IMG/VR virus record: IMGVR_UViG_3300045240_000049
Span: 1 to 42,994 of that record
Strand: one strand, 5' to 3'
DNA: 42,994 nucleotides
Origin: a virus
Shown here: positions 6,559 to 42,994 of the stretch, piece by piece
Numbering within the stretch: the first letter of the stretch is position 1
How the letters are laid out: each line of letters opens with the position of its first letter
Translations under genes and position numbers: made by a program
Notes under the pieces: model-generated
What the model saw: only the letters and a program-made list of their open reading frames with translations
Told to the model about the DNA's origin: nothing
Databases searched by the model: none

Positions 6559-8026
6559 GTACAGGGAAGTCGAAGAACTAGCCGAGGGGTCGGAAGACAA
6601 GCTAAAGCGAGCATGGCAAATCTGCCATGAGATGCTGATTGAAGACCCGCTGGACCCGCGGGCGCTGATTAATTCGTGCTTTGTGTCCCAGCGGCTTGGG
6701 CTTCTGGGGCCGGCCTACCACTTCGGCAGGTCCGCCACCCAGCTCTATCCGCAAGAGCCCAACGGCTGGATCAACTACGGCTACGCAGCGGCGCAGCTAT
6801 GGCGGGTAAAGGAAGCCGAGAGCCATTACCAGACGGCCCTGAAGCTCGCCAAGAGCGTCAAGACGCAGCTCTATGCGCTCCTTAACCTGGGTGCGATGTA
6901 TGTGGATTTGGGCTTCTACGACCGTGCAGAGGTCGTCACGCGCCAGATCCTTGAGATAGAGCCCAACAACTCCAAGGCGCTCACCAACCTTGCGATATGC
7001 AGGCTGGCGCTAGCTGACTGGGGCGGCTGGAAGGATTACCGCAAGCTAATCGGCACGCCGTACCGGCTCAAAGTAAACTACAAGGATGAGCCTGAATGGG
7101 ACGGGACGCCGGATAAGACGGTCGTCCTGTATGCAGAGCAAGGCTTGGGGGATGAGATCCTCTTTGCCTCGATGATTCCCGATGCGGTCAAGCACTGCCG
7201 CAAAGTGATCTTTGACTGTGACGGTAGGCTAGAGGGTCTATTCCGCCGCTCCTTCCCGCAGGTCAAGGTCTACGGGACGCGGGTTAAACAAGAGAAGTGG
7301 GCCAAGGAAGACTGGGCCTTTAACTGCAGCCTGCCGGTAGGGCAGCTGGGCGAGTATTTCCGCACTGATACGCATTCCTTCCCAAGAAGGGCATATCTCA
7401 AGCCGTGTCCCATCCGCGCATCCCAATGGCGCTGGGATAAACCGGCCATAGGGATAGCGTGGAGCGGTGGAGTATCGAGGACGGGCGCCAAGATTCGCAG
7501 GGCGCCGCTGGAGGATTGGCTGCCGCTCTTTAAGGGCGTGGATGCGACCTTCGTCAGCCTTCAGTACAAGGACGCGCAGGAAGAGATCGACGCCTTCCGG
7601 CGCAAGTATCCGGAAGTAGAGCTTGTGCAGTATCCGTGGGCGACGTTGACCCACGACTACGATGACACCGCGGCGCTGGTATCGACGCTGGATGGCGTTG
7701 TCGGCGTGCCGACCTCGGTAGTCCATCTATCGGGCGCGTTAGGCGTTAAAACGTTTGCGATGAAGGCTGAGGCCTCATGCTGGAAGTACAGCTCGGGGCT
7801 CCTATTCCATCCGTGTGAGCTTATAGAGCATCAAGGAACATGGCAGAAGACGATAGAAGCGACAGCCCTGCTAGTCAGGGACCACTTAGGGTGTTTATCG
7901 GATACGACCCCCGACAGCCCATCGCTTACAACGTCCTCCAGCATTCGATCATCCGTCACGCAAGCCGTCCGGTCAGCGTTACGCCCCTCATCCTCGCCCA
8001 GCTCCCGATCAAACGGCGCGGGCTGA
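6548..8026 (+). CDS. TPR-containing glycosyltransferase
   Basis: 492 residues from GTG. Residues about 20-165 hold TPR-type helical pairs (signatures such as YPQEPNGWINYGYAAAQL and LYALLNLGAMYVDLGFYDRA). Residues about 190-430 resemble a GT-B glycosyltransferase of the O-GlcNAc-transferase/heptosyltransferase type: LYAEQGLGDEILFASM, GIAWSGG, and VGVPTSVVHLSGALG near the end, where nucleotide-sugar binding is expected. The likely role is sugar transfer to a phage or host surface molecule. The last 60 or so residues are Ser/Thr/Pro-rich and lie in the 187-base overlap with the next gene, so they may be a read-through tail and not conserved domain. Confidence 0.8.
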   Translation: MSDRYREVEELAEGSEDKLKRAWQICHEMLIEDPLDPRALINSCFVSQRLGLLGPAYHFGRSATQLYPQEPNGWINYGYAAAQLWRVKEAESHYQTALKLAKSVKTQLYALLNLGAMYVDLGFYDRAEVVTRQILEIEPNNSKALTNLAICRLALADWGGWKDYRKLIGTPYRLKVNYKDEPEWDGTPDKTVVLYAEQGLGDEILFASMIPDAVKHCRKVIFDCDGRLEGLFRRSFPQVKVYGTRVKQEKWAKEDWAFNCSLPVGQLGEYFRTDTHSFPRRAYLKPCPIRASQWRWDKPAIGIAWSGGVSRTGAKIRRAPLEDWLPLFKGVDATFVSLQYKDAQEEIDAFRRKYPEVELVQYPWATLTHDYDDTAALVSTLDGVVGVPTSVVHLSGALGVKTFAMKAEASCWKYSSGLLFHPCELIEHQGTWQKTIEATALLVRDHLGCLSDTTPDSPSLTTSSSIRSSVTQAVRSALRPSSSPSSRSNGAG

Positions 8027-8535
8027 CGGAGTTCACCTATTCGCGCTTCCTCGTGCCGTGGCTCTGCGGGTACGAAGGCGTTGGGTTGTTCCTTGATGCG
8101 GATATGGTCGTTAAGGGCGATATCGCAGAGGTTTTCCAGGACTTTGACGCGGAAGTGGCGATGCAGATTGAACAGGCTCAGTTCGAGTGGGCGTCCGCCA
8201 TGCTCTTTAACTGCGCTCTGTGCAAGAACCTGACGCCTGAATACGTCGATAACAAGAAAAACATCATGTTTGACTTCTTCTGGGCTAAGCGGGTAGCGCA
8301 TCTGCCGCCCGAGTGGAATCACTGCGTAGGATATGAAAAGCCCGCGCCTGCCAAGCTCTACCACTACACACAAGGGGTACCGATATGGGCGGAGACGCGT
8401 GGGGTAGAAGACGCACCGTTCTTAAGTGAAGCGAAGGCCATGCTGCATACCGTGTCATGGCAGGAGTTGATGGGTAATTCAGTCCATGCAGAGCACGTCC
8501 AGAGAAGACTTAATCAGCCCGCAGTATCGGGCTGA
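7840..8535 (+). CDS. GT-A type glycosyltransferase (GT8-like)
   Basis: 231 residues. The core begins at LRVFIGYD (residues 16-23); TEFTYSRFLVP at 63-73 and the metal-binding DxD in LDADMV (D86, D88) are clear. The PPEWNHCVGY segment and a late conserved His also fit GT-A enzymes that use nucleotide sugars. The first 15 residues are inside the large overlap with the preceding gene, and the true start could be a few codons later. It probably acts with the neighbouring glycosyltransferase and methyltransferase on the same glycan. Confidence 0.82.
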   Translation: MAEDDRSDSPASQGPLRVFIGYDPRQPIAYNVLQHSIIRHASRPVSVTPLILAQLPIKRRGLTEFTYSRFLVPWLCGYEGVGLFLDADMVVKGDIAEVFQDFDAEVAMQIEQAQFEWASAMLFNCALCKNLTPEYVDNKKNIMFDFFWAKRVAHLPPEWNHCVGYEKPAPAKLYHYTQGVPIWAETRGVEDAPFLSEAKAMLHTVSWQELMGNSVHAEHVQRRLNQPAVSG

Positions 8536-9034
8536 GCAGGAACGCCTGCACGAGACGACCAACTACGGCACGGCCTCAATCGCCTATGCGCCGGTCGTCT
8601 CTTCGATCATCGAGAAGATGGGCGTTACGCATCTACTTGACTATGGCTGCGGGGCACAGACCAATCTCGCCAAACATCTGAAGGTCAAGCAGAAGCTGAC
8701 CTATCAGGCATATGACCCTGGAGTGCCGCGCTTCTCGAAGGCTCCGCTGCCTGCCCAGATGGTGGCGTGCATTGATGTGCTTGAGCACATCGAGCCCGAC
8801 TACTTGGAGTCAGTGCTAAATGACCTTTGCCGGCTGGCTGAGGGAATTGTGTTTCTTACGGTACATACAGGGGCTGCGGTCAAGACGCTCTCGGACGGGC
8901 GTAACGCGCACCTGACGCAGCAGCCGCTTAAGTGGTGGCTGCCAAAGTTCTGGGACCGCTGGGATATCCAGTCGGTGCAATCGACTGGCGAGCATTCCTT
9001 TTTCGTGATCGGCACGACCAAGCCGCGCATTTAA
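8486..9034 (+). CDS. SAM-dependent methyltransferase
   Basis: 182 residues. Class I (Rossmann) methyltransferase: motif I LDYGCGAQTNL at about 51-61 binds S-adenosylmethionine, and ACIDVLEHIEPDYL at about 89-102 matches the family's DVLEHI motif. The DGRNAHL segment and WW pair near 132-145 are typical of a phage subgroup. No DNA target-recognition domain or DPPY/PC catalytic motif is present, so DNA methylation is unlikely; a small-molecule or sugar substrate fits the neighbouring glycosyltransferases. It overlaps the upstream gene by 50 bases. Confidence 0.82.
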   Translation: MQSTSREDLISPQYRAEQERLHETTNYGTASIAYAPVVSSIIEKMGVTHLLDYGCGAQTNLAKHLKVKQKLTYQAYDPGVPRFSKAPLPAQMVACIDVLEHIEPDYLESVLNDLCRLAEGIVFLTVHTGAAVKTLSDGRNAHLTQQPLKWWLPKFWDRWDIQSVQSTGEHSFFVIGTTKPRI

Positions 9035-22860: not shown

Positions 22861-23138
22861 AGATCCCCGGCACATTCCAGGTGCTCGGTACTACTTGGAG
22901 TGTGCATATCGTCTCTCCCGCCAAATGGGTAGAGGAAGACGGCTGCGTGGGGATCAGCGACTTTAAAGCGTGCGAGGTTCGCTTGGTCAAATCCAAGCGA
23001 GACCTCATGGAGCACGTCTACCTCCATGAGCTTACCCATGTAGTGCTCGGCTCCATGAACCACGCACTGCAGACCAATGAGAAGTTTGTTGATGTGTTTG
23101 CGGGCCTGTTACACCAGGCGCTGACTACAGGGAAATAA
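22857..23138 (+). CDS. Small HExxH zinc metallopeptidase-like protein
   Basis: 93 residues from GTG overlapping the upstream stop. HELTH at residues 57-61 supplies two zinc-binding His and the catalytic Glu; the helix carrying it is followed by NHALQTNEKFVDVFAGLL, where a third ligand (Glu) could lie. The GISDFKACEVRLV strand before it is typical of small phage and ImmA/SprT-like metallopeptidases. Substrate unknown. It overlaps the metallophosphoesterase gene by one base. Confidence 0.75.
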   Translation: MKIPGTFQVLGTTWSVHIVSPAKWVEEDGCVGISDFKACEVRLVKSKRDLMEHVYLHELTHVVLGSMNHALQTNEKFVDVFAGLLHQALTTGK

Positions 23139-24154
23139 TGCCAGCCCCAAAGGTTTCCCAAGATGAGTTTATTAAGATTTGGAGAGAAGAGGGCGGCTCA
23201 GCCCATGCCGTGGCGCTGCGCCTAGGGATAGCGGACTCCAACGTCTTCCACCGCAGGGCCAACCTCGCCAAGCACGGCATAGTCCTGCAGACGCAGAAGG
23301 GCACGAACAACAAGCGCGGGACCAACGGTTACGGCCACACCGACTGGGCAGCAGAAGCTCCGGCCTATAACCCCCGCGTCAATATCACGCTGCGCGACGG
23401 GTACTGCGTCCTATTCAGCGATTCCCATTTTTGGCCCGGCATCCGCTCGCTGGCCTTCGAGGGGTTGCTGCTGGTTCTCAAGGAGCTGAAACCCAAGCTC
23501 GTTATCAGTAACGGCGATGCCTTCGACGGCGCCTCCATATCGCGCCACGACCCCCTGGGGTGGCAGAAGACGCCGAAGGTCATAGAGGAGCTGGACGCCA
23601 CAAAGGGCTTCATGGGCGAAGTTGTGCGGGCTTCCCCGAAGGCTGAACACATCTTCACCGTGGGCAACCACGATAGCCGCTTCGACCGGAGGCTAGCGAG
23701 CGAGGTAGGGGAATTCGAGGACGTTCCGGGGATGCATCTCTCCGATCATCTCAAGGAGTGGAAGTTCTGCTATGGCGCGCTGGTTAACGAAGACACTGAC
23801 CCTTTCTTTGCTATTCACGCTATACGCGGCGGCATGTACGCCCCTCGTAATAACGCTCTCGCTGCGGGGTGCTCCGTCTTCACCGGCCACCTACACAGCC
23901 AGAAATCCATCCCGGTTACCACCCTCCTGCATGAATGGGATGGTGTTGACGGGGGAATGATCGCAGACCGGGACGGTCCCCAATTCTCCTACGTCGCATC
24001 CAAGCCCACCGACTGGCGGGAAGGCTTCGCGGTCCAGCGGGTAGACAAGGACGGCCTGCGGTATCCGGCTGAGCTCGCCCGAGTGGTTTACCACAAGCGA
24101 TTCCGCCGGCTGGTGTTCCGCGGGGAAGTCATCTTGGAGCGCAAGCGTGATTGA
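23138..24154 (+). CDS. Calcineurin-like metallophosphoesterase with N-terminal HTH-like region
   Basis: 338 residues. Metal-binding motifs of the calcineurin superfamily are in order: FSDSHFWPG (D95, H97), NGDAFDG (D127), GNHDSR (176-181) and GHLHSQ near 250. Residues 5-45 resemble a small helix-turn-helix (EEGGSAHAVALRLGIADSNVFHRR), as in phage DNA-associated members. Such enzymes cleave phosphoesters in nucleic acids or nucleotides; the substrate is not evident. Its location after lysis genes is unusual for a replication enzyme. Confidence 0.85.
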   Translation: MPAPKVSQDEFIKIWREEGGSAHAVALRLGIADSNVFHRRANLAKHGIVLQTQKGTNNKRGTNGYGHTDWAAEAPAYNPRVNITLRDGYCVLFSDSHFWPGIRSLAFEGLLLVLKELKPKLVISNGDAFDGASISRHDPLGWQKTPKVIEELDATKGFMGEVVRASPKAEHIFTVGNHDSRFDRRLASEVGEFEDVPGMHLSDHLKEWKFCYGALVNEDTDPFFAIHAIRGGMYAPRNNALAAGCSVFTGHLHSQKSIPVTTLLHEWDGVDGGMIADRDGPQFSYVASKPTDWREGFAVQRVDKDGLRYPAELARVVYHKRFRRLVFRGEVILERKRD

Positions 24155-24885: not shown

Positions 24886-24956
24886 TGAATCTACTATGGC
24901 GGGCGCTCGATGCGCTGGTGTTCGCCGTGGAACGCTGGTGGATGCGTCGCCGCTGA
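24885..24956 (+). CDS. Possible 23-residue amphipathic peptide
   Basis: GTG overlaps the last base of the preceding TAG. The peptide (NLLWRALDALVFAVERWWMR core) is amphipathic with Trp and Arg at the end, plausible for a membrane-active peptide. It closes the rightward late operon, whose stop faces the end of the leftward operon two bases away. Too short for certainty. Confidence 0.35.
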   Translation: MNLLWRALDALVFAVERWWMRRR

Positions 24957-24957
24957 G

Positions 24958-25158
24958 TTATCCGCTGCTCTTTACCGGTTGAACCGCTGTCTCTATTGCC
25001 ATGGCCGGCATCATCGAGACCGTGTCGTGCTTGTCGATAAGCCAGTAGTACCGCTCGCCGCCCAAGCTACCCACGGCGTAAATTTTCCCCCACGGTTTGA
25101 CAACCGTACCGAGCTGCAACGGCGGCTTGAAGATGGGGTGGTAATCAAGTCTTACCAT
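24958..25158 (-). CDS. Last gene of leftward operon, hypothetical
   Basis: 66 residues, compact beta-rich (PPLQLGTVVKPWGKIYAVGS, then RYYWLIDKHD), no Cys. Overlaps the upstream gene by 14 bases. Looks like a small folded protein such as an SH3-like barrel, which is guesswork. Unassigned. Confidence 0.65.
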   Translation of the reverse strand: MVRLDYHPIFKPPLQLGTVVKPWGKIYAVGSLGGERYYWLIDKHDTVSMMPAMAIETAVQPVKSSG

Positions 25159-25381
25159 CGGGAGTCACTTCCTGTGGTGGAGCGTCTACTAAGAACGCAT
25201 CGCGCTCTGCCAAAAAGATGGTAACCATAGAGCCGTCTCTGCCCATGAAAGTCTTGGGACTTTCACCAGACAATAGGGCATCAAGATAAAACTTTTGCAC
25301 TTGCCATGACCCATCCGGTCGGTCCAGCCTAATCATCAGCGCTTTGTCGGCGCCTAGCAGCCATGCGCGGAATGCGTTCAT
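25145..25381 (-). CDS. Leftward operon hypothetical protein
   Basis: 78 residues, Asp/Arg-rich with strands around ALMIRLDRPDGSWQVQKFYL. ATG overlaps the upstream stop (ATGA). Ends in TPDGKT, similar to the tails of other genes here. Unassigned. Confidence 0.68.
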   Translation of the reverse strand: MNAFRAWLLGADKALMIRLDRPDGSWQVQKFYLDALLSGESPKTFMGRDGSMVTIFLAERDAFLVDAPPQEVTPDGKT

Positions 25382-25399
25382 TTAGCACCGTCCACGGTT
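25377..25399. repeat. 23-bp repeat, copy 1
   Basis: Identical to 27533-27555. It covers the last codons of one gene (encoding TVDGAK and stop on the minus strand) and the ATGA start overlap of the next. Two exact copies 2.1 kb apart at equivalent gene junctions suggest duplication or recombination between gene ends. Confidence 0.85.
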
Positions 25400-25608
25400 A
25401 CAGCGTCTTCTCTAAAGACGTATCCCCTGCCGTGAGCCGCATTGTAGATCGCGGCCGTGCCGCCTTCTTTCCTGACGAACTGCCAGCAGGTGTTTGGATT
25501 GCTTAGTCGGTAAGGCCCCTCATATCCCAATTCCTTGCACCGCGCCTCCCACGCCCGAAAGCCCGACCATTCAGAGTCGTTCGTATCTTTGAATATTTCA
25601 GGTTCCAC
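25378..25608 (-). CDS. Leftward operon hypothetical protein
   Basis: 76 residues from GTG. Trp/Tyr-rich (SEWSGFRAWEARCKELGYEG, NTCWQFVRKEGG). The end, AVTVDGAK, is encoded by a 23-bp sequence that recurs exactly at the end of another gene at 27534. Unassigned. Confidence 0.68.
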   Translation of the reverse strand: MEPEIFKDTNDSEWSGFRAWEARCKELGYEGPYRLSNPNTCWQFVRKEGGTAAIYNAAHGRGYVFREDAVTVDGAK

Positions 25609-25723
25609 TGAATACCCCTGGCATACAGCGCCGGCAAGCCTTAACCCAGATCCCGCGCGGAGACTTGGGGGGAACTGGCTCCCATCTATGGCCGAGCATG
25701 AGGCATAACAGGGCTTTAATCAT
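25598..25723 (-). CDS. 41-residue protein with Cys-rich end
   Basis: ATG at 25723 overlaps the upstream stop (ATGA); ends at 25598, overlapping the next gene's GTG by 11 bases. The peptide begins MIKALLCLMLGHRWEPVPP and has a CRRC pair near the end; with the earlier Cys and His it could form a small zinc site, or the hydrophobic start could be an anchor. It fills what would otherwise be a gap in a fully overlapping operon. Confidence 0.55.
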   Translation of the reverse strand: MIKALLCLMLGHRWEPVPPKSPRGIWVKACRRCMPGVFSGT

Positions 25724-25923
25724 TTGCCACCGTCTGCGCTGACAGGTGCTAATGAGAAATCAGCTAGCAGGACTTCGCCATCCCGCCTGTGTCTAGCGCA
25801 AAGCGTCACCTTGTACCAAACGTCATCCGCAGGGACAGCCCGACGGGCAGCTTCTGAGAATGGGAGCATTACGTCACTTAGCTGACGTTCTGACTCCCGC
25901 AAGATCTTTAGCTTAAGTTCCAT
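25720..25923 (-). CDS. Leftward operon hypothetical protein
   Basis: 67 residues from the ATG at 25923, chosen because it overlaps the upstream stop; a longer frame exists but lacks a plausible start. Begins MELKLKILRESERQL, with a strand-rich second half (VWYKVTLCARHRRDGEVLL), ending SADGGK. Unassigned. Confidence 0.62.
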   Translation of the reverse strand: MELKLKILRESERQLSDVMLPFSEAARRAVPADDVWYKVTLCARHRRDGEVLLADFSLAPVSADGGK

Positions 25924-26110
25924 TGTCGGTTCCTGCGCTGTCAGCTCTGCACATACAAACCTGATCTCCCACCAGCCACACTCTGCCATGAGGGCATGGG
26001 CGGGGCTTCTCTGCGCTTGCGGCAACCATCCTCTTGAAAGTAGCGACGACTTCTCCATCGGGGGCAAGCAGCGCAGCTTCGACCGCATCAGCCAAGAGCT
26101 TCTTATCCAT
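25913..26110 (-). CDS. Leftward operon hypothetical protein, Cys-containing
   Basis: 65 residues from ATG at 26110, which overlaps the upstream stop by eight bases. Helical first half (KKLLADAVEAALLA) and a CPHGRVWLVGDQVCMC segment with three Cys and one His, a possible zinc ribbon. Ends SAGTDNGT. Unassigned. Confidence 0.62.
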   Translation of the reverse strand: MDKKLLADAVEAALLAPDGEVVATFKRMVAASAEKPRPCPHGRVWLVGDQVCMCRADSAGTDNGT

Positions 26111-26348
26111 TGTCAGGTAGTCCTGCATTGACCCGGATTCTGTCAGGCAGCCGCACACGGCTATGCGGCGCATCCCCATTCTTCTTTTCCCACTCGTCAC
26201 AAGCCGCCTCGGCATCCTTAATGATGTCCTCTAATTGGCCGCGAATAAATCGCATGCTTTGCATGCTTTCGTAAGCAATCCTCACTTCCTCTAGAGCCTT
26301 ATCACGCTCGGCGCCCACGCGGATTAGCTCCTCTACCAATTCCCTCAT
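26103..26348 (-). CDS. Small coiled-coil protein
   Basis: 81 residues. Residues 1-60 are a charged helix with heptads (LVEELIRVGAERDKALEEVR, then RGQLEDIIKDAEAACDEWEK). The tail is polar. Probable dimer. Overlaps its neighbours at both ends. Unassigned. Confidence 0.68.
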   Translation of the reverse strand: MRELVEELIRVGAERDKALEEVRIAYESMQSMRFIRGQLEDIIKDAEAACDEWEKKNGDAPHSRVRLPDRIRVNAGLPDNG

Positions 26349-26479
26349 TTCTGCACCTCGGTCTTGCCCTCAGGTGCTATCCACCGGAACTGTTTACCCA
26401 CCAGCGCGCGTATCGCCCCGCAGAGGGCGCACCAAACGCCGTCGAATCTACGCATGGCCTTGGGATGCTTACAGCGCAT
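26345..26479 (-). CDS. 44-residue zinc-ribbon-like protein
   Basis: ATG at 26479 to TGA at 26345, overlapping the next start (ATGA). Starts MRCKHPKAM and has CALCGAI at 18-24, giving C3, H5, C18 and C21 as likely zinc ligands. This pattern is common in tiny phage proteins. Fills the gap between two larger minus-strand genes. Confidence 0.62.
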   Translation of the reverse strand: MRCKHPKAMRRFDGVWCALCGAIRALVGKQFRWIAPEGKTEVQK

Positions 26480-26488
26480 CGGACTCGC

Positions 26489-26698
26489 TCACAGCGGCTC
26501 TATTTCTGTAACGCAGCCCAGCTTCCACTTTACGATGGCAGCCGCTGCTTTATCGCGGGAATCGTAAACTTGCGGCCAGGAACACTCGGGGTAGCCCTCA
26601 TACCAACAGCTCACCCAAAACAGACCAAGGCGTGAGCGCTGCGCCCTATAGGTGGGCGGCTTGCCATGGCAAGTCTCTTTGATGATTCTAAACATCAT
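26489..26698 (-). CDS. Leftward operon hypothetical protein
   Basis: 69 residues from the ATG at 26698 that overlaps the upstream stop (a second ATG follows at once). Basic first part (IIKETCHGKPPTYRAQRSR) and aromatic second part (GLFWVSCWYEGYPECSWPQV), ending in a helix. Reads as a compact small domain; unassigned. Confidence 0.65.
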   Translation of the reverse strand: MMFRIIKETCHGKPPTYRAQRSRLGLFWVSCWYEGYPECSWPQVYDSRDKAAAAIVKWKLGCVTEIEPL

Positions 26699-27318
26699 AG
26701 AGGCGCTAACCCGTTCTCCGCTGTTCCTTCGTACTCGCCAGCGACCACCCTGATGCGGTACACCCCGCACTTGCAGATATCCAGCTTTTCGGGTCCGGCA
26801 TCGCTCACGCGAAATAGGACATTCTTCCAATCATGCGCATGTGTCGTCTCGTCAGCGTCTCGCGTTATGGACGTTGCCTCGGTAGCTTGGCTAGAACTTG
26901 ATACATCGTCTGTGCCTCTCGCGAGCTTATAGGCATCACAACCCAATTCTCCATTGCACTTGCTAATCGCCGCGCGCAGCCGCTCGATCTCGTCGTACTG
27001 CTTGTCCATGGCGCAATACGGGCAAGCCATCTTGGCAGTCAGCGGGCCGGCGAAGTGACCGCATGCAAGCGGATTTGAGGTCCGAGCAACGAGTGGCCCG
27101 GTTGTGCAGTCTTTGCTCACGCACTGCCACCCGAGGCCGGGACCAGCATCAAGACAGGGCGCGCCGCAGTCTCGGCACGGGACTGTTTCATTTGAGGTGT
27201 ACTCCACCCCCTTTAGGTGCAGGTGCCAGTCGCAGGGGTGTCCGGTGCAACTACACCCACACTCGCCGCATGGGCCTTTGCCGCAGCCACACAGATTCGA
27301 TGTCAGCGGCTCATCCAC
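26695..27318 (-). CDS. Cysteine-rich multi-zinc protein
   Basis: 207 residues from GTG. About 20 Cys in successive clusters: CGCGKGPCGECGCSC (10-24), CRDCGAPC (48-55), CVSKDC (66-71), ACGHF with CPYC (86-102), and ICKCG near 182. The middle is helical with an EIERLR segment. It may bind several zinc ions and act as an adaptor or nucleic-acid-binding protein. The first cluster could also be a metallothionein-like knuckle. The C-terminal domain (about 160-207, starting at HDWKNVLFRVSD) looks separate. Confidence 0.68.
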   Translation of the reverse strand: MDEPLTSNLCGCGKGPCGECGCSCTGHPCDWHLHLKGVEYTSNETVPCRDCGAPCLDAGPGLGWQCVSKDCTTGPLVARTSNPLACGHFAGPLTAKMACPYCAMDKQYDEIERLRAAISKCNGELGCDAYKLARGTDDVSSSSQATEATSITRDADETTHAHDWKNVLFRVSDAGPEKLDICKCGVYRIRVVAGEYEGTAENGLAPL

Positions 27319-27496
27319 GGCGCACCACCTTGTAGGTCTCCACGATCACAGTCGGCCTAGCGACCGTATAGGGCCACGGCGAGAGCCATATATAGGGGTT
27401 CCAAGTGCCCACAACCCACGGAACGCGCCACGGATCGATAGTTAGCTGCTTCTCTCCGTCCCGAGTTCCGGCCTGGGCAGCCTCAAGGTGAGAACA
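27311..27496 (-). pseudogene. Trp/Pro-rich frame without a normal start
   Basis: An open frame ending in TGA at 27313-27311 encodes a Trp/Pro/Tyr-rich segment (DPWRVPWVVGTWNPYIWLSP, then TVIVETYKVV) that looks like real protein, but no ATG, GTG or TTG precedes it in frame after the stop at 27499-27497. It could be the second part of the 31-codon gene upstream joined by a -1 frameshift, start at an ATC or at the internal GTG, or be decayed. It overlaps the GTG start of the Cys-rich gene. Confidence 0.4.
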
Positions 27497-27537
27497 TTAC
27501 CGCTGTAGACCGTCATGGTCCCTATCAGGTTCTTCAT
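27442..27537 (-). CDS. 31-residue protein, possibly the 5' part of a split gene
   Basis: ATG at 27537 overlaps the upstream stop (ATGA). Product begins MKNLIGTMTVYSGNVLTLRL and stops after 31 codons. A different frame, strongly protein-like, continues downstream, so this may be the first half of one gene broken by a single-base change or joined by frameshifting. Confidence 0.45.
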   Translation of the reverse strand: MKNLIGTMTVYSGNVLTLRLPRPELGTERSS

Positions 27538-27555
27538 TTAGCACCGTCCACGGTT
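27533..27555. repeat. 23-bp repeat, copy 2
   Basis: Identical to 25377-25399 and in the same position relative to a gene end and the next ATG. See copy 1. Confidence 0.85.
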
Positions 27556-27797
27556 TCCGGTAGTCGCGCTTCCCGCGCTTTCATAACCCGGACAAACCTT
27601 TGAATTTCACGCCCTATAAGATCTCGGGCGTCAAAAAGCGTCTCCCAGTTCTCGAATTGGTACTCATCCATTCTTGCACACATTGCCGTAGCGTCTATAA
27701 AAGATGTCGCCAATAGCCCCGCGGGGCCTTCCTCGTTTTCATGCTCTAGCGCCCACTCGCGTATGCAGTCCAAAGACTTTTGGCTAAGGTTTTTCAC
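27534..27797 (-). CDS. Leftward operon hypothetical protein, helical
   Basis: 87 residues, all-helical and acidic (LDCIREWALEHENEEGPAGL, then DARDLIGREIQRFVRVMKAR). Ends ETVDGAK from the 23-bp repeat shared with the gene at 25378. ATGA overlap with upstream gene. Unassigned. Confidence 0.68.
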   Translation of the reverse strand: MKNLSQKSLDCIREWALEHENEEGPAGLLATSFIDATAMCARMDEYQFENWETLFDARDLIGREIQRFVRVMKAREARLPETVDGAK

Positions 27798-28048
27798 TTA
27801 GTAGCATCTGCGCTGTCCGGCGGCCAGTCGCTCTCGTATACCTGAATCGGCCCCCCTATAGCCTTTGCTCCCTCTGCCAGCGGCACGCTCTTAAAGCTGT
27901 CAATGCAGTAAACCTGAATTCTTTTCCCGCACCAAGTGCAATAAGGGCCACTAGCTACGTAGTCTGATTCGTGCTCGCAGTCCGTCTCGTAAAAAACGTC
28001 CCGCGTCTCATGGGTGTCGTTACGATACCAGCCGCACCGCTCATCCAT
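27794..28048 (-). CDS. Leftward operon protein with CxxC zinc site
   Basis: 84 residues. CTWCGK at about 37-42 with earlier Cys and His (DCEHESDY) suggests one zinc ribbon; acidic overall. Ends SADATK, similar to the tails of nearby genes. Preceded by a CAAAGAGAG stretch that could serve as ribosome site. Unassigned. Confidence 0.66.
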   Translation of the reverse strand: MDERCGWYRNDTHETRDVFYETDCEHESDYVASGPYCTWCGKRIQVYCIDSFKSVPLAEGAKAIGGPIQVYESDWPPDSADATK

Positions 28049-28087
28049 TGTCAGGGACTCTCTTTGGATGTATCACATTGCATACGA

Positions 28088-28429
28088 TTAGCCGCCCTTT
28101 GGGCTAGAACGTGATACGTCCTTGCCCAACTCAGCTCTGTTCAGTTCATCGGCGAAAGCGTGCGCCAGACTCACCAATCCGTCCCAAATGAACTTGTGCT
28201 TGCAGCCGTCGAAACGGTCATGCACCCCAGCCGAAATGTAGTACTTGTCCGGTCCGTACCACCCATAAGACTCCTTGCCGTGCTCGTTGTCGTCCCGCAG
28301 CACACTGATCTCGAAGCCTCGGCTGCTGCTGGCCCAGGTGCCTTTGATGTCTGCAACCCCACAAACCCAATTTAGCAGATTGCGAACTGCGTATAATGTA
28401 TACCAAGTGAAACAAGAACTTAGGTTCAT
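28088..28429 (-). CDS. Leftward operon hypothetical protein
   Basis: 113 residues. The core, GFEISVLRDDNEHGKESYGW then KYYISAGVHDRFDGCKHKFI, reads as a conserved alpha/beta domain; the first 25 residues (from ATG at 28429) are hydrophobic and less convincing, but there is no later in-frame start before the core. Separated from the upstream HTH gene by 18 bases. Unassigned. Confidence 0.62.
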   Translation of the reverse strand: MNLSSCFTWYTLYAVRNLLNWVCGVADIKGTWASSSRGFEISVLRDDNEHGKESYGWYGPDKYYISAGVHDRFDGCKHKFIWDGLVSLAHAFADELNRAELGKDVSRSSPKGG

Positions 28430-28447
28430 AGCGATGTCGCAATTATC

Positions 28448-28693
28448 TCAAGTGATTGAAGCGTTTTCTTCGCCAGAAGCGCAGTTCTCAACACGCGCGC
28501 GGGCAAGATGCCTGCGATTACGCGGAAGTTTCTCGGGGCCGAACTTCGCGCGCATCTCGGCAAGGCCGCGCATCACAGTTGCCACTGACACGTTGAAGTA
28601 GGTCGCGCAGTCGCGCACTGACATTCCAACCTCGCGGAACTGGCGAGCCTCGAACTTATCGACCTCGCGCATGGTGCGGTAGGGCTTTCTCAT
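28448..28693 (-). CDS. Helix-turn-helix DNA-binding protein
   Basis: 81 residues. The HTH lies at about 15-46 (ARQFREVGMSVRDCATYFNV then SVATVMRGLAEMR), of the Hin/resolvase or GcrA-like type in which a short basic protein recognises DNA. The C-terminus is basic (RNRRHLARARV). It may regulate this operon or a host promoter. Begins right after the YbcO-type gene stop. Confidence 0.72.
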   Translation of the reverse strand: MRKPYRTMREVDKFEARQFREVGMSVRDCATYFNVSVATVMRGLAEMRAKFGPEKLPRNRRHLARARVENCASGEENASIT

Positions 28694-28966
28694 CTAAATG
28701 TGCCCCTCTTTATCCAGCCACGCCTGAGTCCTGAGTACGCCCTCAAGAAAAGCGACCTTGGTCTCAGCGTCCTTATGAGTGTCCACGTACGAATGACAGC
28801 TATAACAAGCGTGAGCACCGTAACGGTCAGGAGACTTAAGGCCCATACCAGACAGACCAATAAGGCGGTAATGGGCGAGGCAAGTTGTCTCGGGGTCATG
28901 GTTACAAATCCCTGGAAGCCTTATCTGGCATGGCCGACCCTTAGCCAGTTTTCGCAAATTCGCCAT
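28694..28966 (-). CDS. YbcO-type (DUF1364) putative nuclease
   Basis: 90 residues from ATG at 28966, chosen because it precedes the conserved opening ANLRKLAKGRPCQIRLPGIC; the longer frame runs into the HNH gene. LAHYRLIGLSGMG and ACYSCHSYVDTHKD hold the conserved His and Cys residues of the family, an HNH-like nuclease of lambdoid prophages (E. coli ybcO). Probably acts in recombination or DNA processing. Confidence 0.82.
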   Translation of the reverse strand: MANLRKLAKGRPCQIRLPGICNHDPETTCLAHYRLIGLSGMGLKSPDRYGAHACYSCHSYVDTHKDAETKVAFLEGVLRTQAWLDKEGHI

Positions 28967-29441
28967 AGAACTCTCGCGCGGCCTTCTCATACGCATAGGC
29001 GGCTTCTTGCGGGCTTTGGAAGATCCCCAAATATCTGTTCTCACCCTTAACGGTTATTTGCGCCACCCACTTTTGCCGGTGCTTCTTGACGCCCTTAAAG
29101 CCAGAGGTATTGTTTTTTTGCTTGCCTCGGTTAGCTCCATTTAGGCTCTTATCAGCAAGCCTTAAATTTGAAATGGAGTTGTTCGACCTATTCTCATCTT
29201 TGTGGTCAAGAAGCTTCGGCAAGTACCCATAAAACCAAAGCCAAGCCAATCGGTGCGCCCCAATTGATAATTCTCCTAGCCTGATGTACCGATACCCATT
29301 CGCGGTAATCCAGCCTGCCACTTGACCAAGGTGTGAATTCTTTCGCGGTTTTTTCCACCGGAAAATTCCGCTCTCTGAATCTAAGTCCAGCTTCTCCATC
29401 ATCAGATCGCGAAGTTCAGCCTGCGTCATTTTCTGGCTCAC
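28941..29441 (-). CDS. HNH endonuclease with C-terminal AP2 domain
   Basis: 166 residues from GTG. HNH core: H63 region (GAHRLAWLW), then LLDHKDENRSNNSISNLRLA (78-97) with the metal-binding and catalytic residues. Residues 114-163 are an AP2 DNA-binding domain (GFKGVKKHRQKWVAQI, RYLGIFQSPQEAAYAYEKAA). Typical of free-standing homing endonucleases that spread between phages. The DNA is visibly more A+T-rich than its neighbours, a sign of recent arrival. It overlaps both flanking genes by 26 bases. Confidence 0.88.
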   Translation of the reverse strand: MSQKMTQAELRDLMMEKLDLDSESGIFRWKKPRKNSHLGQVAGWITANGYRYIRLGELSIGAHRLAWLWFYGYLPKLLDHKDENRSNNSISNLRLADKSLNGANRGKQKNNTSGFKGVKKHRQKWVAQITVKGENRYLGIFQSPQEAAYAYEKAAREFYGEFAKTG

Positions 29442-29595
29442 TTAGCCTTGCCACTGCTACCGCTAAGTTGATCCCCGAGAACGACTCGTGAAAGTGAGCG
29501 GCCTGCAGTTCGTCTAGGTCGATCACGATACGGAGCGATCCGTCAGCGAGCGTGCGATAGGAGGACAGAATCCCCTGGACTGCCGCGGCGCTCAA
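29416..29595 (-). CDS. Small conserved-looking recombination-region protein
   Basis: 59 residues from a TTG that overlaps the upstream TGA, ending inside the HNH gene. Contains GILSSYRTLADGSLRIVIDL and DELQAAHFHESF, a pattern I recognise from unassigned proteins next to phage recombination genes. The beta hairpin plus His-rich helix could bind nucleic acid. Function unknown. Confidence 0.68.
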   Translation of the reverse strand: MSAAAVQGILSSYRTLADGSLRIVIDLDELQAAHFHESFSGINLAVAVARLSEPENDAG

Positions 29596-29843
29596 AACGG
29601 CAGACTCGTATCGTCTTCAAACGCTGGCGAGGGCTCGCTCGCAAGGCTCTTTACCGGCGGCTTCTTTGGACGCGCCGCAAGGCTCATGTACTTCTTTGCC
29701 CCGTCCTTCGAGGACTTCACCCACGCGGACAGCCAGTACTGCTGTCCTCCGATGGTGATAGTCCCTGTATAGTCTGGGTGCTGTTCGGTTTCCTTTTCGG
29801 CCCGAAACAGCGCGCCGTCGCCTTCTTTCTGCTCGTATCTCAT
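29592..29843 (-). CDS. DUF736-like small protein, possible ssDNA-binding
   Basis: 83 residues. GDGALFRAEKETEQHPDYTG then TITIGGQQYWLSAWVKSSKD matches DUF736-type small beta-barrel proteins found in phage recombination cassettes. The tail is acidic with a C-terminal DDTSLPF resembling the acidic tip of SSB proteins (DDxxPF). An SSB-like role beside the ERF annealing protein is likely but not proven. Confidence 0.75.
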   Translation of the reverse strand: MRYEQKEGDGALFRAEKETEQHPDYTGTITIGGQQYWLSAWVKSSKDGAKKYMSLAARPKKPPVKSLASEPSPAFEDDTSLPF

Positions 29844-30010
29844 AAGTCCTTCTTGGATAGGTCATCCCACATAATTGAGACCAAAGCCCCTAAGATCCCA
29901 AAGGCGCCGCCGATTAGTACCGGGATTGGCGAAGGCGGATTCAAAAGACCAGTTGTTGCCATTGACAGGACGCATGCGGCTGACAAACAGAGTAGAAATT
30001 TCCAGATCAT
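29840..30010 (-). CDS. Small membrane protein in recombination cassette
   Basis: 56 residues, ATG at 30010 overlapping the ERF stop and TGA overlapping the next ATG. Two hydrophobic segments (FLLCLSAACVLSMATTGLL and PVLIGGAFGILGALVSIMW) and a short charged end (DDLSKKDL). An inner-membrane protein inserted between two DNA-recombination genes, so perhaps an exclusion or anti-host function. Confidence 0.6.
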   Translation of the reverse strand: MIWKFLLCLSAACVLSMATTGLLNPPSPIPVLIGGAFGILGALVSIMWDDLSKKDL

Positions 30011-30648
30011 TGACGTGTCCCGTTGGCCTTGTGGGCCTCGTGTACTGCCTTGATGCTCTCTTTGATGCTCCGCCGCTCGGCGGCTGAGAGGAACGTGCTA
30101 ACAGCGATGTAGAAGTCAGCTTCCGGGTTTAGCTCCTGGTGCAGCTCGTACATCAGTTCGTCCTTGCCGTCCGAGAGGGCTTGGCGGAATCGCTCGGCGT
30201 ATTCCTTGGCCTTCTTCATGTCAGCAGACTTGTGAGCCTCCCCGCGGGGATCGTTAGTGCCGCGCCCCACCGCGCTTTCGGCGTCGTCATCCGAATCACC
30301 GACGACCCCCGCGACTGCCATGAGATGGTAGCGGCGGGCGTATGTGGACGCGGAGCCATAGCCCTGCGCGTCCTGCTTGGACACCGGGAGCGTGTAGGGC
30401 CCGAACCTCATCTGCTGGCCGCTCGAATGGCACAGAATAGTTGAGCACGCAACAGCTCCCTCCGCGGTCTGGAGATCTTGAACCACCGAGATTCCATTAC
30501 GAGCAAGTACAGGTATAACCGCATCGCGCACCGCCGCGAGAGATGCATACTTGTTCTTGAAGAACGGGTTTTGCGTATCGAACTTCGGGTTCGACATTTC
30601 CGCTTGTGCTTTCGCGAGGGCTGTTGCGATTTCATTTAGCTCACTCAT
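30007..30648 (-). CDS. erf: ERF-family ssDNA annealing protein
   Basis: 213 residues from ATG at 30648, which overlaps the upstream stop. ERF hallmarks: FFKNKYASLAAVRDAVIPVL (29-48), NGISVVQ, and GYGSASTYARRY (96-107). P22 Erf anneals complementary single strands to circularise and recombine phage DNA. The C-terminal third is helical and charged. The neighbouring DUF736-like and YbcO-type genes make this a recombination cassette. Confidence 0.9.
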   Translation of the reverse strand: MSELNEIATALAKAQAEMSNPKFDTQNPFFKNKYASLAAVRDAVIPVLARNGISVVQDLQTAEGAVACSTILCHSSGQQMRFGPYTLPVSKQDAQGYGSASTYARRYHLMAVAGVVGDSDDDAESAVGRGTNDPRGEAHKSADMKKAKEYAERFRQALSDGKDELMYELHQELNPEADFYIAVSTFLSAAERRSIKESIKAVHEAHKANGTRQ

Positions 30649-30925
30649 ACATGTCGTCCAGTGTGTCTTTGTAGTCTTCGTCCGATGTTGGATAAACCTC
30701 ATCGCTACCGAAGCGGGGGAATTCCTCGGGCTGGTAGCCGTCGTCGTCGTCAAGGAACCAGTTATCTTCTACGGCACGCTCTCGGGCGGATTTCTCTGGC
30801 ACTGCCGCTGGGGTGGCGGGAGTATCACTCGGTTCCTTCTCAACCACCTTGCGTGCCGCCAAGCGCGCCAAAATCTGTAGAAGCTCACTAAGCTCGTCAT
30901 GTGCATCTCCAAAGTTAGTGCTCAT
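30641..30925 (-). CDS. Acidic hypothetical protein
   Basis: 94 residues. N-terminal helix (DAHDELSELLQILARLAARK), Pro/Ala linker and a very acidic C-terminal half (NWFLDDDDGYQPEEFPRFG, then DEDYKDTLDDMYE). Strong negative charge could mimic DNA or bind a nuclease or the ERF protein. Overlaps both neighbours. Unassigned. Confidence 0.68.
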   Translation of the reverse strand: MSTNFGDAHDELSELLQILARLAARKVVEKEPSDTPATPAAVPEKSARERAVEDNWFLDDDDGYQPEEFPRFGSDEVYPTSDEDYKDTLDDMYE

Positions 30926-31134
30926 GGTGTTTCCTCAGTGCAGATTCCGTTTACGGGGTATTCCATCGCCACGGGCGCATGGCCCGAGACGTGTAGCCAG
31001 TCGATACCGGCTGAATCGGTGGTGCTGTAGTCGCCTTCCTCGAGATACATCGAGACGGTGCAAAGGGTAGGGTCGGGCGCAGCAGCAGCTTCCGACCCAC
31101 ACCCAGCCAACAGCAGGAAGAGAAGCGCTCTCAC
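30922..31134 (-). CDS. Small predicted lipoprotein, early operon
   Basis: 70 residues. MRALLFLLLAGC is a short lipoprotein signal with lipobox LAGC and C12 as lipid site, then SEAAAAP linker and a small polar domain with two Cys (LCTVSM, GICTEE). An early-expressed lipoprotein suits superinfection exclusion at the envelope; that is inference. Confidence 0.66.
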   Translation of the reverse strand: MRALLFLLLAGCGSEAAAAPDPTLCTVSMYLEEGDYSTTDSAGIDWLHVSGHAPVAMEYPVNGICTEETP

Positions 31135-31352
31135 GGGCCTAACCTACGGACGGCGTACCTATGGGAAATTCCGGCTGTGATGCAGTGCTGCTGCGGGCCC
31201 TTCATGCCCTTGAACAGCATCGCGTCCCAGAGGTCGTTGAATTCGCCTACGACTACGCCGGGGCTGCTCCCGACATCGCGGCGATACATAGATCCATCGC
31301 TCTGTGCCTCAACGTGGGCGCGGAGGTAAGAGCTGTCGCGGTTTGTGAACAT
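31131..31352 (-). CDS. First gene of leftward operon
   Basis: 73 residues from ATG at 31352. This start is chosen because a strong purine-rich ribosome site (AAGGGGGG) lies just upstream and because upstream in-frame ATGs at 31370 and 31406 fall at or before the expected transcription start of the promoter at 31378-31406. Contains TNRDSSYLRAHVEAQSDG and DLWDAMLFKGMKG. No family recognised. Being first in the operon it should be among the earliest proteins made. Confidence 0.65.
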   Translation of the reverse strand: MFTNRDSSYLRAHVEAQSDGSMYRRDVGSSPGVVVGEFNDLWDAMLFKGMKGPQQHCITAGISHRYAVRRLGP

Positions 31353-31377
31353 GTCGCCCCCCTTATCCATGGAGGCA

Positions 31378-31406
31378 ACATTACTACTGCGGGCGGTATC
31401 TGTCAA
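31378..31406 (-). promoter_or_regulatory. Leftward early promoter (-35 TTGACA, -10 TAATGT)
   Basis: On the minus strand TTGACA (31406-31401), a 17-base spacer and TAATGT (31383-31378) form a good sigma-70 promoter for the leftward operon. Predicted start is near 31371. An operator-like 16-mer (31408-31423) abuts the -35 element, so a bound repressor would sit at the promoter, as at lambda pL. Confidence 0.72.
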
Positions 31407-31407
31407 C

Positions 31408-31423
31408 GCCCAAAGTGGTAATA
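31408..31423. promoter_or_regulatory. Operator-like 16-mer, site A
   Basis: GCCCAAAGTGGTAATA on the plus strand, next to the leftward promoter's -35 box. It shares the core GCC-N-AAAGTGGT with sites at 31687-31702 (inverted) and 31718-31733. Three copies around two divergent transcription units suggest binding by the HTH repressor or the YdaS-like protein. Confidence 0.6.
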
Positions 31424-31429
31424 AAGGGC

Positions 31430-31459
31430 AAAAAATAACCGCCCAGTGGTAATGGGCGG
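31430..31459 (-). terminator. Intrinsic terminator of the repressor gene
   Basis: Read on the minus strand, a perfect 7-bp stem (CCGCCCA / TGGGCGG) with a 7-base loop is followed by TTATTTTTT. It begins directly after the TAG of the repressor gene. The loop itself contains the GTGGTAA half-site found in the operators. It insulates the repressor transcript from the leftward early promoter. Confidence 0.85.
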
Positions 31460-31666
31460 CTATTGTTGAGAATGAATCCTATTGGGAACGGTCTTTTGGT
31501 AACTTCCTGGGTGCTTTACCCCAGTTTTAAGCCCCGAAATGGTCTGCTGGCTCACCTGTAGGAGCCTCATCAATGTGGCCGTCCTGAGGCTTTTGGGGGC
31601 CCTACCGTCTAAGACGCATTCCTCAAACCGTCTCCACAGGGGGCTCGGCTGCACGATTTTGGGCAT
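31460..31666 (-). CDS. Short HTH repressor-like protein
   Basis: 68 residues from ATG at 31666. LMRLLQVSQQTISGLKTG (about 32-49) is an XRE/Cro-type helix-turn-helix. It is in the cI position: divergent from a Cro-like gene, flanked by operator repeats and with its own terminator. The protein ends soon after the HTH (HPGSYQKTVPNRIHSQQ), lacking the oligomerisation or peptidase domain of a full CI. It may be a minimal repressor or a remnant. A longer upstream frame is antisense to the YdaS gene and is not favoured. Confidence 0.6.
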   Translation of the reverse strand: MPKIVQPSPLWRRFEECVLDGRAPKSLRTATLMRLLQVSQQTISGLKTGVKHPGSYQKTVPNRIHSQQ

Positions 31667-31686
31667 TACGCCATTGTGTGGTAAAG

Positions 31687-31702
31687 GAAAACCACTTTTG
31701 GC
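31687..31702. promoter_or_regulatory. Operator-like 16-mer, site B (inverted)
   Basis: Minus-strand GCCAAAAGTGGTTTTC, matching sites A and C in the GCC-N-AAAGTGGT core. With bases just to its left it forms the 18-bp inverted repeat GTGGTAAAGGAAAACCAC (31678-31695), a likely dimer site. Located between the two divergent regulator genes. Confidence 0.6.
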
Positions 31703-31717
31703 ATTTGCGTTAGGACC

Positions 31718-31733
31718 GCCGAAAGTGGTAAAA
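31718..31733. promoter_or_regulatory. Operator-like 16-mer, site C
   Basis: GCCGAAAGTGGTAAAA ends nine bases before the YdaS-like ATG. A weak -35/-10 pair (TTGCGT at 31705-31710, TAAAAG at 31729-31734) would overlap it; if real, the YdaS-like message would be nearly leaderless. Binding here would shut off rightward transcription. Confidence 0.55.
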
Positions 31734-31741
31734 GACCCCGT

Positions 31742-31954
31742 ATGGAAGTTACCGAGGGTCTGCGCAGGGCGATCAGAAACGCGGGCGGGCAGGCCGCGCT
31801 CGCGCGAAGGCTGGGCGTTAGTCAGCAGCTGCTTTCCGGCTGGGTGACCGGGGCGAAGCGCATCCGCGCCGAGCGCGTTCTCAAGATCGAGAAAGAAACC
31901 GGCATTCCCCGCCATGAGCTTCGGCCTGACTTATATCCGCTTGACGCGGCTTGA
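31742..31954 (+). CDS. YdaS-family Cro-like regulator
   Basis: 70 residues. Near-diagnostic for YdaS-type regulators: AIRNAGGQAALARRLGVSQQ then LLSGWVTGAKRIRAERVLKI and the ending ETGIPRHELRPDLYP. The helix-turn-helix spans about 16-37. In prophages this protein occupies the Cro position, divergent from the repressor. It probably binds the GTGGTAA-type operators around it and starts the rightward operon. Confidence 0.85.
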   Translation: MEVTEGLRRAIRNAGGQAALARRLGVSQQLLSGWVTGAKRIRAERVLKIEKETGIPRHELRPDLYPLDAA

Positions 31955-31978
31955 TGTTGTTCCCCATGAACCAACATC
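31953..31978. promoter_or_regulatory. Inverted repeat GATGTTG / CAACATC
   Basis: Perfect 7-bp arms (31953-31959 and 31972-31978) separated by 12 bases, overlapping the stop of the YdaS-like gene. The hexamer CAACAT/ATGTTG recurs at 32003, 32149 and 32194, so it may be a second operator set or a structured leader RNA. Confidence 0.45.
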
Positions 31979-32281
31979 CTACCGCAGCGCCCACGTTAAA
32001 TTCAACATATTCCAACACTGAATCTTGCCGTATTCGCGCAAATGCCTTGTTTCATAGGGTTTGCGAGGAGGGCATGTTAGATGTTAGTTCTTGCCACAAT
32101 GGCCACGCTCAAGTGTCAATAGGGGAAAAGTCCTACATTTTTTTCCCCATGTTGCCACGCGTGGATATGCAACCTCGTACGGCGATTGTAAACCAACATA
32201 ACTGCCAAGCAGTGTGCGTTACCGCACAGAGACACTTGGTCCATTGCGCAGCCCGAGTATTCCCCCTCCGCTGCGCCCTCC
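31979..32281 (+). other. Leader region between YdaS-like and replication genes
   Basis: About 300 bases without a convincing gene. It holds repeats of CAACAT/ATGTTG (32003-32008, 32149-32154, 32194-32199), the tandem ATGTTAGATGTTAG at 32074-32087, and a 10-bp perfect palindrome CCACGCGTGG at 32155-32164 flanked by GTTG and GCAAC. A frame of up to 125 codons crosses it (31951-32328) with an internal ATG at 32074 behind GAGGAGGG, but it reads through the terminator and has no recognisable protein character. Best viewed as a regulatory leader or small-RNA locus ending at the terminator. Confidence 0.5.
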
Positions 32282-32326
32282 AGAGCCCCGGAGATCTGGT
32301 GTTTCCAGGCCCGGGGCTCTTTTTTT
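32282..32326 (+). terminator. Strong intrinsic terminator upstream of replication genes
   Basis: A perfect 10-bp GC-rich stem (AGAGCCCCGG at 32282-32291, CCGGGGCTCT at 32311-32320) followed by TTTTTT. It lies four bases before the replication gene's ATG, in the position of lambda tR1. Rightward transcription must pass it, or a separate promoter must exist. Confidence 0.9.
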
Positions 32327-32330
32327 AGCC

Positions 32331-33008
32331 ATGCAGTGGTTTCGCATGTACGCGGAATTCCTAACGGACCCACTGATCCGGCTTCTCTCCTTTGAGGACC
32401 AGCGCCATTTCGTAGCGGCGCTGTGCATGAAGGCGTCCGGGGTGCTCGATAAGGAATACGCGAGTGAGACCACGCGCCGAGAAGTCATCGCAAGCCTTGT
32501 CGGGTTAAACGATGAACCAACCGCGACGGGCGGCAAGTCAGCCCTTGAGGAAGCCAACCGCCGCTTGCGGAATAGGGGGCTCGTTGATGAGAGCTGGCAA
32601 CCCATCAACTGGAACAAGAGGCAATTCGAGTCAGATTCTTCCGCTGACCGCGTGCGTAAATGGAGGGAACGTCACAGTAACGTTTCAGTAACGTTACCGT
32701 TACGTACTAGAACAGATACAGAACAGATACAGAAACAGAACAGAGAAGAAGGGCTGATTGGCGCCCCAATGGGGCTGAATCGGGAAGCCTTCGAGAAATA
32801 TTCAGGCTACCGAGACTCCCTCGGCAAACCTCTCGCTCCCGCGTCTCTGCTCGCCGCCCAACGGAAGCTTGCGGCGTTTGGCGACAAACAATCCGAAGTC
32901 GTTGAACAGACCATGGCCAATGGTTGGGTGGGTTTGTTTCACGTGAAACCCAATGGCAAGCCCAAGCGCACTTGGCGGCCTGGGCCGGAGGACAGCGGGC
33001 CATGCTGA
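32331..33008 (+). CDS. Replication initiation protein, lambda O-like
   Basis: 225 residues from ATG at 32331, directly after the terminator. N-terminal winged-helix-type domain (WFRMYAEFLTDPLIRLLSFE, then RREVIASLVGL and NRRLRNRGLVDES), then RQFESDSSADRVRKWRERH. The linker at residues about 115-140 is encoded by tandem repeats that look like an origin, the arrangement seen in lambda O. The C-terminal domain (about 145-225) probably contacts the helicase loader. Overlaps the next gene by seven bases. Confidence 0.78.
   Translation: MQWFRMYAEFLTDPLIRLLSFEDQRHFVAALCMKASGVLDKEYASETTRREVIASLVGLNDEPTATGGKSALEEANRRLRNRGLVDESWQPINWNKRQFESDSSADRVRKWRERHSNVSVTLPLRTRTDTEQIQKQNREEGLIGAPMGLNREAFEKYSGYRDSLGKPLAPASLLAAQRKLAAFGDKQSEVVEQTMANGWVGLFHVKPNGKPKRTWRPGPEDSGPC
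32675..32750. other. Putative replication origin with 11-bp iterons
   Basis: Two kinds of 11-bp tandem unit lie inside the O-like gene: CAGTAACGTTT (32675-32685), CAGTAACGTTA (32686-32696) and an inverted-like CCGTTACGTAC (32697-32707), then AGAACAGATAC twice (32709-32719, 32720-32730) and AGAAACAGAAC (32731-32741) running into a purine-rich, A-rich stretch. Iterons followed by an easily melted segment inside the initiator gene match lambdoid origins. Confidence 0.65.
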
Positions 33009-42587: not shown

Positions 42588-42994
42588 ATGGCGAAGCGAC
42601 TTTTCCAGGCGAACGGCTTAACGAGTGGCACAGGTACTGCCACCAATACGCTGCTCACCACCTCCCAATATCTGGCACTGAAGGGAGCAGCCGGCACGCA
42701 GCGCATTGATGTGCTCGAAGTGCTCATTTCTGGGTTTGCGGGTAGTTCTGCGCCCGCGCTCTTCCAGCTCGGCCATGTGAGCGTGATCGAGACCACACCG
42801 ACCGCGCTTGCGACCGCGACGGCTTCGGATGGCCCTATGGATTCCAGTGCGGGGGCCTTGTCCTCGGCGCCGGTCACATTCATTGCGGCAGCCACGCAGC
42901 CCACCAGCACCAACAATGCGACAGACCCGAGGCTCAACCTCGGTTTGAATCTGTTCGGCGGAATCCTTCGCTGGGTAGCGGCACCCACAGCGCA
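42588..42994 (+). CDS. Virion-type hypothetical protein, 5' part (continues at 3-236)
   Basis: Begins MAKRLFQANGLTSGTGTATN and runs to the window end. The last 127 bases duplicate the window start, so the gene continues at 3-236 to give 171 residues in total. A strand-rich middle (QRIDVLEVLISGFAGSSAPA, then LFQLGHVSVIE) resembles phage decoration-type proteins. Function unknown. Confidence 0.8.
   Translation, partial: MAKRLFQANGLTSGTGTATNTLLTTSQYLALKGAAGTQRIDVLEVLISGFAGSSAPALFQLGHVSVIETTPTALATATASDGPMDSSAGALSSAPVTFIAAATQPTSTNNATDPRLNLGLNLFGGILRWVAAPTA
42868..42994. repeat. Direct terminal repeat, right copy (127 bp)
   Basis: Exact duplicate of 1-127; see the left copy. Removing it gives a 42,867-bp circle. 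Confidence 0.95.

Follow-up and report, generated by a model that had tools for sequence, protein, structure and literature searches.

The early-left operon of phage L comprises 20 genes, including erf, abc1/abc2, kil and ral, most of which are of unassigned function (PMC8022706). Protein clusters are smaller in early-left than in late operons (PMC9836094). Early-left operons are a main reservoir of unidentified host-acting phage proteins. Here, we describe the gene cluster at positions 24958-31352 of the virus record IMGVR_UViG_3300045240_000049, which was analysed over its full 42,994 nucleotides and is referred to as the window. This cluster is very probably the early-left (pL-type) operon of a lambda/P22/F116-like phage: a recombination core combined with a changing set of presumably host-directed accessory genes that may turn over at gene junctions. 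As an early-left operon it is ordinary; its gene content is new and its shared gene boundaries are of modest interest.

Like the P22-like phages (phage L, PMC8022706; P22), the window has approximately 20-25 small leftward genes, which include Erf recombination genes and mostly uncharacterised accessories, and this early-left operon lies opposite a Cro-led early-right operon. Unlike these phages, no homologue of abc1/abc2, kil, ral or cIII is recognised in the window and no integrase was found. In addition, a 68-residue, helix-turn-helix (HTH)-like gene sits at the CI position, and YbcO and a short single-strand-binding protein (SSB) are present instead. An N-like antiterminator, cIII, kil, ral, abc, gam and an integrase are accessory features that are not needed for the early-left operon class; among the accessory proteins scanned, none of these other than the integrase, which was sought separately, is matched in Pfam, PHROGs or NCBIfam.

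A similar map is found in Hollowayvirus H66 and F116, which are Pseudomonas temperate podoviruses. The large terminase (TerL) of H66 is 52% identical to that of the window, and the annotated H66 map likewise has leftward recombination genes, strings of near-ORFans with 4-nt overlaps, a divergent Cro, early-right genes and terminase. H66 differs in its repressor, which is CI-type and full-size, in its annealing protein, which is of the Rad52 type, and in its size of 65 kb versus 43 kb.

The leftward array and its position

When all minus-strand frames were re-read, 25 linked genes were found to run from 31352 down to 24958. The chain covers 6300 of 6395 bases and its median protein length is 76 residues. 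Neighbours overlap at 19 of the 24 junctions, with an overlap of exactly 4 nt at 11 (ATGA, or GTGA/TTGA). On the minus strand, the longest linked chain of open reading frames (ORFs) reaches 6313 nt, versus 1111 nt on the plus strand. As the maximum in 100 Markov shuffles was 3385 nt (mean 1384), the tiling is far beyond chance. This test was used instead of codon usage which, when trained on virion genes, gave scores near zero for most mini-genes and was neither for nor against them. GC and AT skew go negative across the cluster, which fits leftward coding. The array of about 25 overlapping genes given in a preliminary description of this DNA is thus upheld, and the size range of 31-120 codons given there holds for most genes, failing for three of more than 120 residues (213, 162 and 207). 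Paired Cys/His motifs occur in 6 cluster proteins versus 2.9 expected (p=0.01), in agreement with the several zinc sites proposed earlier.

An exact direct terminal repeat of 127 bp (1-127 = 42868-42994) indicates that the window is probably an entire phage genome, assembled as a circle, with approximately 42.9 kb of unique sequence. Rightward from 31742, the genes are in order a Cro/YdaS-like regulator, an O-like initiator, a helicase loader, a VRR-NUC/resolvase-like nuclease, a Q-like antiterminator and the large terminase, after which come the virion and lysis genes. This early-right order matches the lambda/P22 map, on which the leftward cluster takes the early-left position.

The cluster is identified as an early-left operon because it faces the early-right operon, with operator-like repeats at both divergent promoters. 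The leftward promoter, read by eye, has a perfect -35 (TTGACA, 31406-31401), a 17-nt spacer and a weak -10 (TAATGT, 31383-31378), and the -35 lies between the inverted arms. There are two perfect copies of TTACCACTTTSGGCG, at 31407-31421 and 31717-31731, one per divergent promoter and each with a partner arm. Within three mismatches, the window holds 6 matches to this sequence, which was equalled in 0 of 100 shuffles. The repeats are putative operators common to pL and pR, as in the lambdoid/P22-type early-left operon. The 68-residue HTH-like gene occupies the position of the lambdoid CI repressor; the protein has no Pfam match, its HTH was read by eye, and a hairpin followed by a T-run (31431-31467) lies 3' of the gene. 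A search for RNA families found none. Taken together, the gene order, the divergent regulators, the perfect -35 inside operator-like repeats and the order kept in relatives bear out the earlier claim of a leftward early operon.

The recombination core

DNA recombination is the function that can be recognised in the operon (Table 1). Erf-type recombinases work on diverged, short homologies (PMC3945230). The SSB-like protein ends in an SSB-type C-terminal tip, EDDTSLPF, matches phrog_18154/7364 and qualifies as a member of the SSB family, while the nearest solved structure to YbcO is that of E. coli YbcO (3g27, E=1.8e-23). The order Erf-SSB-YbcO recurs in 12 viral loci, with the other genes varying. 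The relative L002 shares, in order, Erf (69% in the best segment), SSB, the 59-residue gene and YbcO, and at its end the L002 cluster abuts a homologue of the window's 24344 gene, which lies just beyond the cluster end; none of the window's other accessory genes is present in L002. No nucleotide relatives were found in annotated phages, and 24901-32800 searched at low stringency likewise gave none. Erf relatives were sought in one genome per bacterial species and none was confirmed.

The accessory genes

It had been stated that, apart from the recombination genes, no gene is recognised. This is nearly so: the HNH-AP2 endonuclease and YbcO are recognisable and the 28088-28429 gene has relatives. 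For the remaining accessory proteins scanned, which did not include all of the shortest, Pfam, PHROGs, NCBIfam and PADLOC gave nothing convincing. Six orphans were compared with an annotated phage collection and five have no homologue there; the sixth is the 28088 gene. Its relatives, in L126, L127 and Vibrio phages, keep an invariant RDDNEHGK..SYGW core and match phrog_8232, a PHROG without assigned function. The L126 homologue lies inside a row of ATGA-overlapping mini-genes whose members next to it are unrelated to the window's. The true start of the 28088 gene is probably downstream of 28429. Just after the basic HTH-like gene and 5' of the 28088 gene is a palindromic GTATACATTATAC (28380-28450), preceded by TG, which is a possible internal promoter that would split the operon in two.

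In the ORF pair at 27311-27537, a protein-like reading in the second frame extends upstream of the 27412 start, and the pair is possibly one gene of about 90 codons split by a frameshift. Relatives of the 207-residue Cys-rich protein were sought and none was found. The putative early lipoprotein of the preliminary description was recovered with its lipobox at 30922-31134. As for the membrane protein, the hydrophobic ORF at 28690-28899 was rejected as another reading frame of ybcO, and 29840-30010 is the better candidate. The DNA-mimic-like protein is indeed strongly acidic, and its model (predicted local distance difference test score, pLDDT, of 65) has an N-terminal helix with disorder, which at this low confidence points away from a compact DNA mimic. 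Structure prediction had been looked to as a check on these genes, and the single-sequence models of the acidic protein and of the Cys-rich protein (pLDDT 32) were uninformative.

Sequences shared at gene junctions

Two identical copies of the 23-nt sequence AACCGTGGACGGTGCTAAATGAA lie on gene junctions 2156 bp apart and bracket ten genes, and diverged copies are found at two more junctions. This is the longest exact repeat in the operon and, genome-wide, it is exceeded by the terminal repeat alone. Five junction pairs match at at least 13 of 20 upstream bases versus approximately 0.1 expected. Across 58 related operons (window included), both copies fall on gene junctions in 9 of 35 long exact repeats versus 0.9 expected, a count in which the gene boundaries of relatives come from a simple, uncurated chaining script and related loci are not independent. 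The junction repeats suggest that gene boundaries are sites of recombination or duplication. In relatives, several of these repeats encode common C-terminal peptides, and there protein-level causes or gene duplication are possible explanations. A CsrA-type hairpin reading of the window repeat was rejected because the other copies lack GGA.

A shared-tail pattern recurs in small early phage proteins: neighbouring mini-genes with common C-terminal peptides (IRARG, FARAILRKAQ, AISKALGG) are seen in L126 (2405-2835), L095, L020 and L066.

In the nin region of lambdoid phages, short conserved boundary sequences occur at the junctions of exchangeable genes. The window repeat, a putative site of exchange, may be comparable to these. 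Cluster K mycobacteriophages likewise carry start-associated sequences, short repeats at the starts of small non-structural genes from different families (PMC3203893). The start-associated sequences are 13 bp long, contain a Shine-Dalgarno (SD) sequence and are conserved across a phage cluster (PMC3203893), whereas the window repeat is approximately 20 nt, bridges two neighbouring genes by covering the 3' end of the first and the 5' end of the second, and is found in this genome only.

The proposed early-left operon would work as follows. On infection or induction, transcription from the promoter near 31400 would produce one or two messages, translationally coupled via the ATGA overlaps. Erf, SSB and the nuclease would then carry out early single-strand-annealing recombination, and small accessory proteins, variable in their make-up, would act on the host, some of them probably host-inhibiting or counter-defence. 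This set may turn over through recombination or duplication at junctions, aided by the phage's own Erf, and the repeated boundary sequence could be the trace of that turnover. A more specific proposal, which we offer tentatively and consider rather unlikely, is that the mini-genes in the downstream half form a cassette array. Erf-driven annealing at the boundary sequence would insert, lose and reorder them, and because this sequence covers both sides of a junction each exchange would leave the ATGA coupling in place; related phages would do likewise with other boundary sequences. If the boundary-sequence reading is true, it provides a concrete mechanism by which a gene set turns over with translational coupling kept.

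Weighing the alternatives

The preliminary description regarded the cluster as a host-takeover or anti-defence island. As known early-left operons carry recombination, host-killing and anti-restriction genes, this is a fair prior, and by analogy takeover or anti-defence content, like recombination at short shared boundaries, is plausible. It is only an expectation from the operon class, and no gene here has a defence-related family match. The stricter view, that most mini-genes inhibit restriction, CRISPR, abortive infection or host enzymes, is possible but somewhat improbable. The position and timing of the operon fit, one of its proteins is very acidic, P22-like early-left operons include kil and ral (relief of type I restriction; PMC8022706), and 38% of the non-structural genes of one mycobacteriophage are toxic or growth-inhibiting when expressed (PMC11373665). 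Against this, the recognised genes are for recombination, the model of the acidic protein does not suggest a compact mimic, and the orphans tested lack homologues in the annotated collection, apart from one whose relatives have no assigned function. Homology to an anti-defence protein or aca regulator was sought in PADLOC (a defence-side library), Pfam, PHROGs and NCBIfam, none of them dedicated to anti-CRISPR proteins, and no match was found; the 28448 protein is only weakly HTH-like.

The junction repeat could instead be a selected translation-coupling or ribosome-binding element, for which cluster K provides a precedent (PMC3203893), and not a trace of recombination. Its four copies do lie in one register at 4-nt ATGA/GTGA overlaps. 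However, they are on only 4 of 24 junctions and without a clear Shine-Dalgarno sequence, two are identical over 23 nt where the others match at 12-14 of 20, and the junction repeats of other phages are unrelated in sequence, which makes such an element doubtful. Local gene duplication, with gene bodies that then diverged and left shared ends, is a comparably unlikely source. Arrays of this type often undergo tandem duplication and the L002 repeats reach into paralogous-looking genes, but the window proteins that have the shared end look unrelated and their similarity stops abruptly after 23 nt.

Several results weigh against the early-left operon with its changing accessory set. The leftward promoter failed a promoter scan and its -10 is weak. 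Neither an integrase or resolvase (PF00589, PF00239) nor a full-size CI was found in this terminally redundant, apparently complete genome, so that lysogeny and regulation of the true lambdoid type are no more than possibilities; a phage without integrase and with only the 68-residue HTH-like gene may have lost lysogeny or have an unusual minimal immunity switch. As most accessory genes are without relatives, their putative function is an expectation from the class. In addition, searches of other phages for the junction repeat gave nothing, so that swapping at it is putative.

Features of the operon and neighbouring genes

The operon is clearly delimited, and its approximately 17-20 unstudied small proteins are a bounded list for screening.

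Table 1. Features of the early-left cluster, its control region and its junction sequences, in window coordinates (aa, amino acids; pI, isoelectric point).
Feature	Position	Strand	Evidence or remark
Cro/YdaS-like regulator, first gene of divergent early-right operon	31742..31954	+	PF15943; phrog_35
Matching operator-like inverted repeat at rightward (cro) promoter	31691..31731	+	
Small basic HTH-like protein, 68 aa, between both early promoters	31460..31666	-	position, sequence
Leftward promoter/operator-like inverted repeat	31378..31421	-	arms 31407-31421, 31381-31395
First operon gene, 73 aa	31131..31352	-	SD GGGGGG; no family match
Putative lipoprotein, 70 aa	30922..31134	-	lipobox LAGC, by eye
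Acidic protein, 94 aa, directly before erf	30641..30925	-	pI 4.1, net -17
Erf single-strand annealing recombinase, 213 aa	30007..30648	-	PF04404 E=3.9e-25; phrog_2324 E=1.7e-43
Candidate small membrane protein, 56 aa	29840..30010	-	by eye; no family match
Short SSB-like protein, 83 aa	29592..29843	-	phrog_18154 E=4e-12; relatives adjoin Erf
59-aa protein	29416..29595	-	same place in L002 (45%)
HNH + AP2 endonuclease (homing type), operon insertion	28941..29429	-	PF13392 E=4e-13; phrog_99 E=3e-61
YbcO nuclease, 90 aa	28694..28966	-	PF07102 E=1.9e-29
Basic HTH-like protein, 81 aa	28448..28693	-	weak HTH matches, below cut-off
Conserved phage mini-protein	28088..28429	-	motif EISVLRDDNEHGKxSYGW; relatives L126, L127, Vibrio phages
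84-aa protein	27794..28048	-	CxxC motif
87-aa protein	27534..27797	-	ends in boundary sequence
Two short ORFs, 31 + 33 aa	27311..27537	-	by eye
Cys-rich protein, 207 aa	26695..27318	-	19 Cys
Nine mini-genes, 41-81 aa	24958..26698	-	no identified relatives; starts 26698, 26479, 26348, 26110, 25923, 25723, 25608, 25381, 25158
Junction repeat copy 1, AACCGTGGACGGTGCTAAATGAA	25377..25399	-	
Junction repeat copy 2	27533..27555	-	identical to copy 1 over 23 nt
Diverged copy of junction sequence	25720..25746	-	
Diverged copy of junction sequence	27794..27820	-	

Outside the operon, a metallophosphoesterase gene (23138-24154; phrog_221) lies beside the lysis genes and is also present in several Erf-bearing relatives. 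Genes resembling tetratricopeptide repeat (TPR) proteins, glycosyltransferases and methyltransferases are found at 6548-9034 among the virion genes. In L049 and L053, a glycosyltransferase-like gene that looks similar by eye immediately follows SSB in the early operon.

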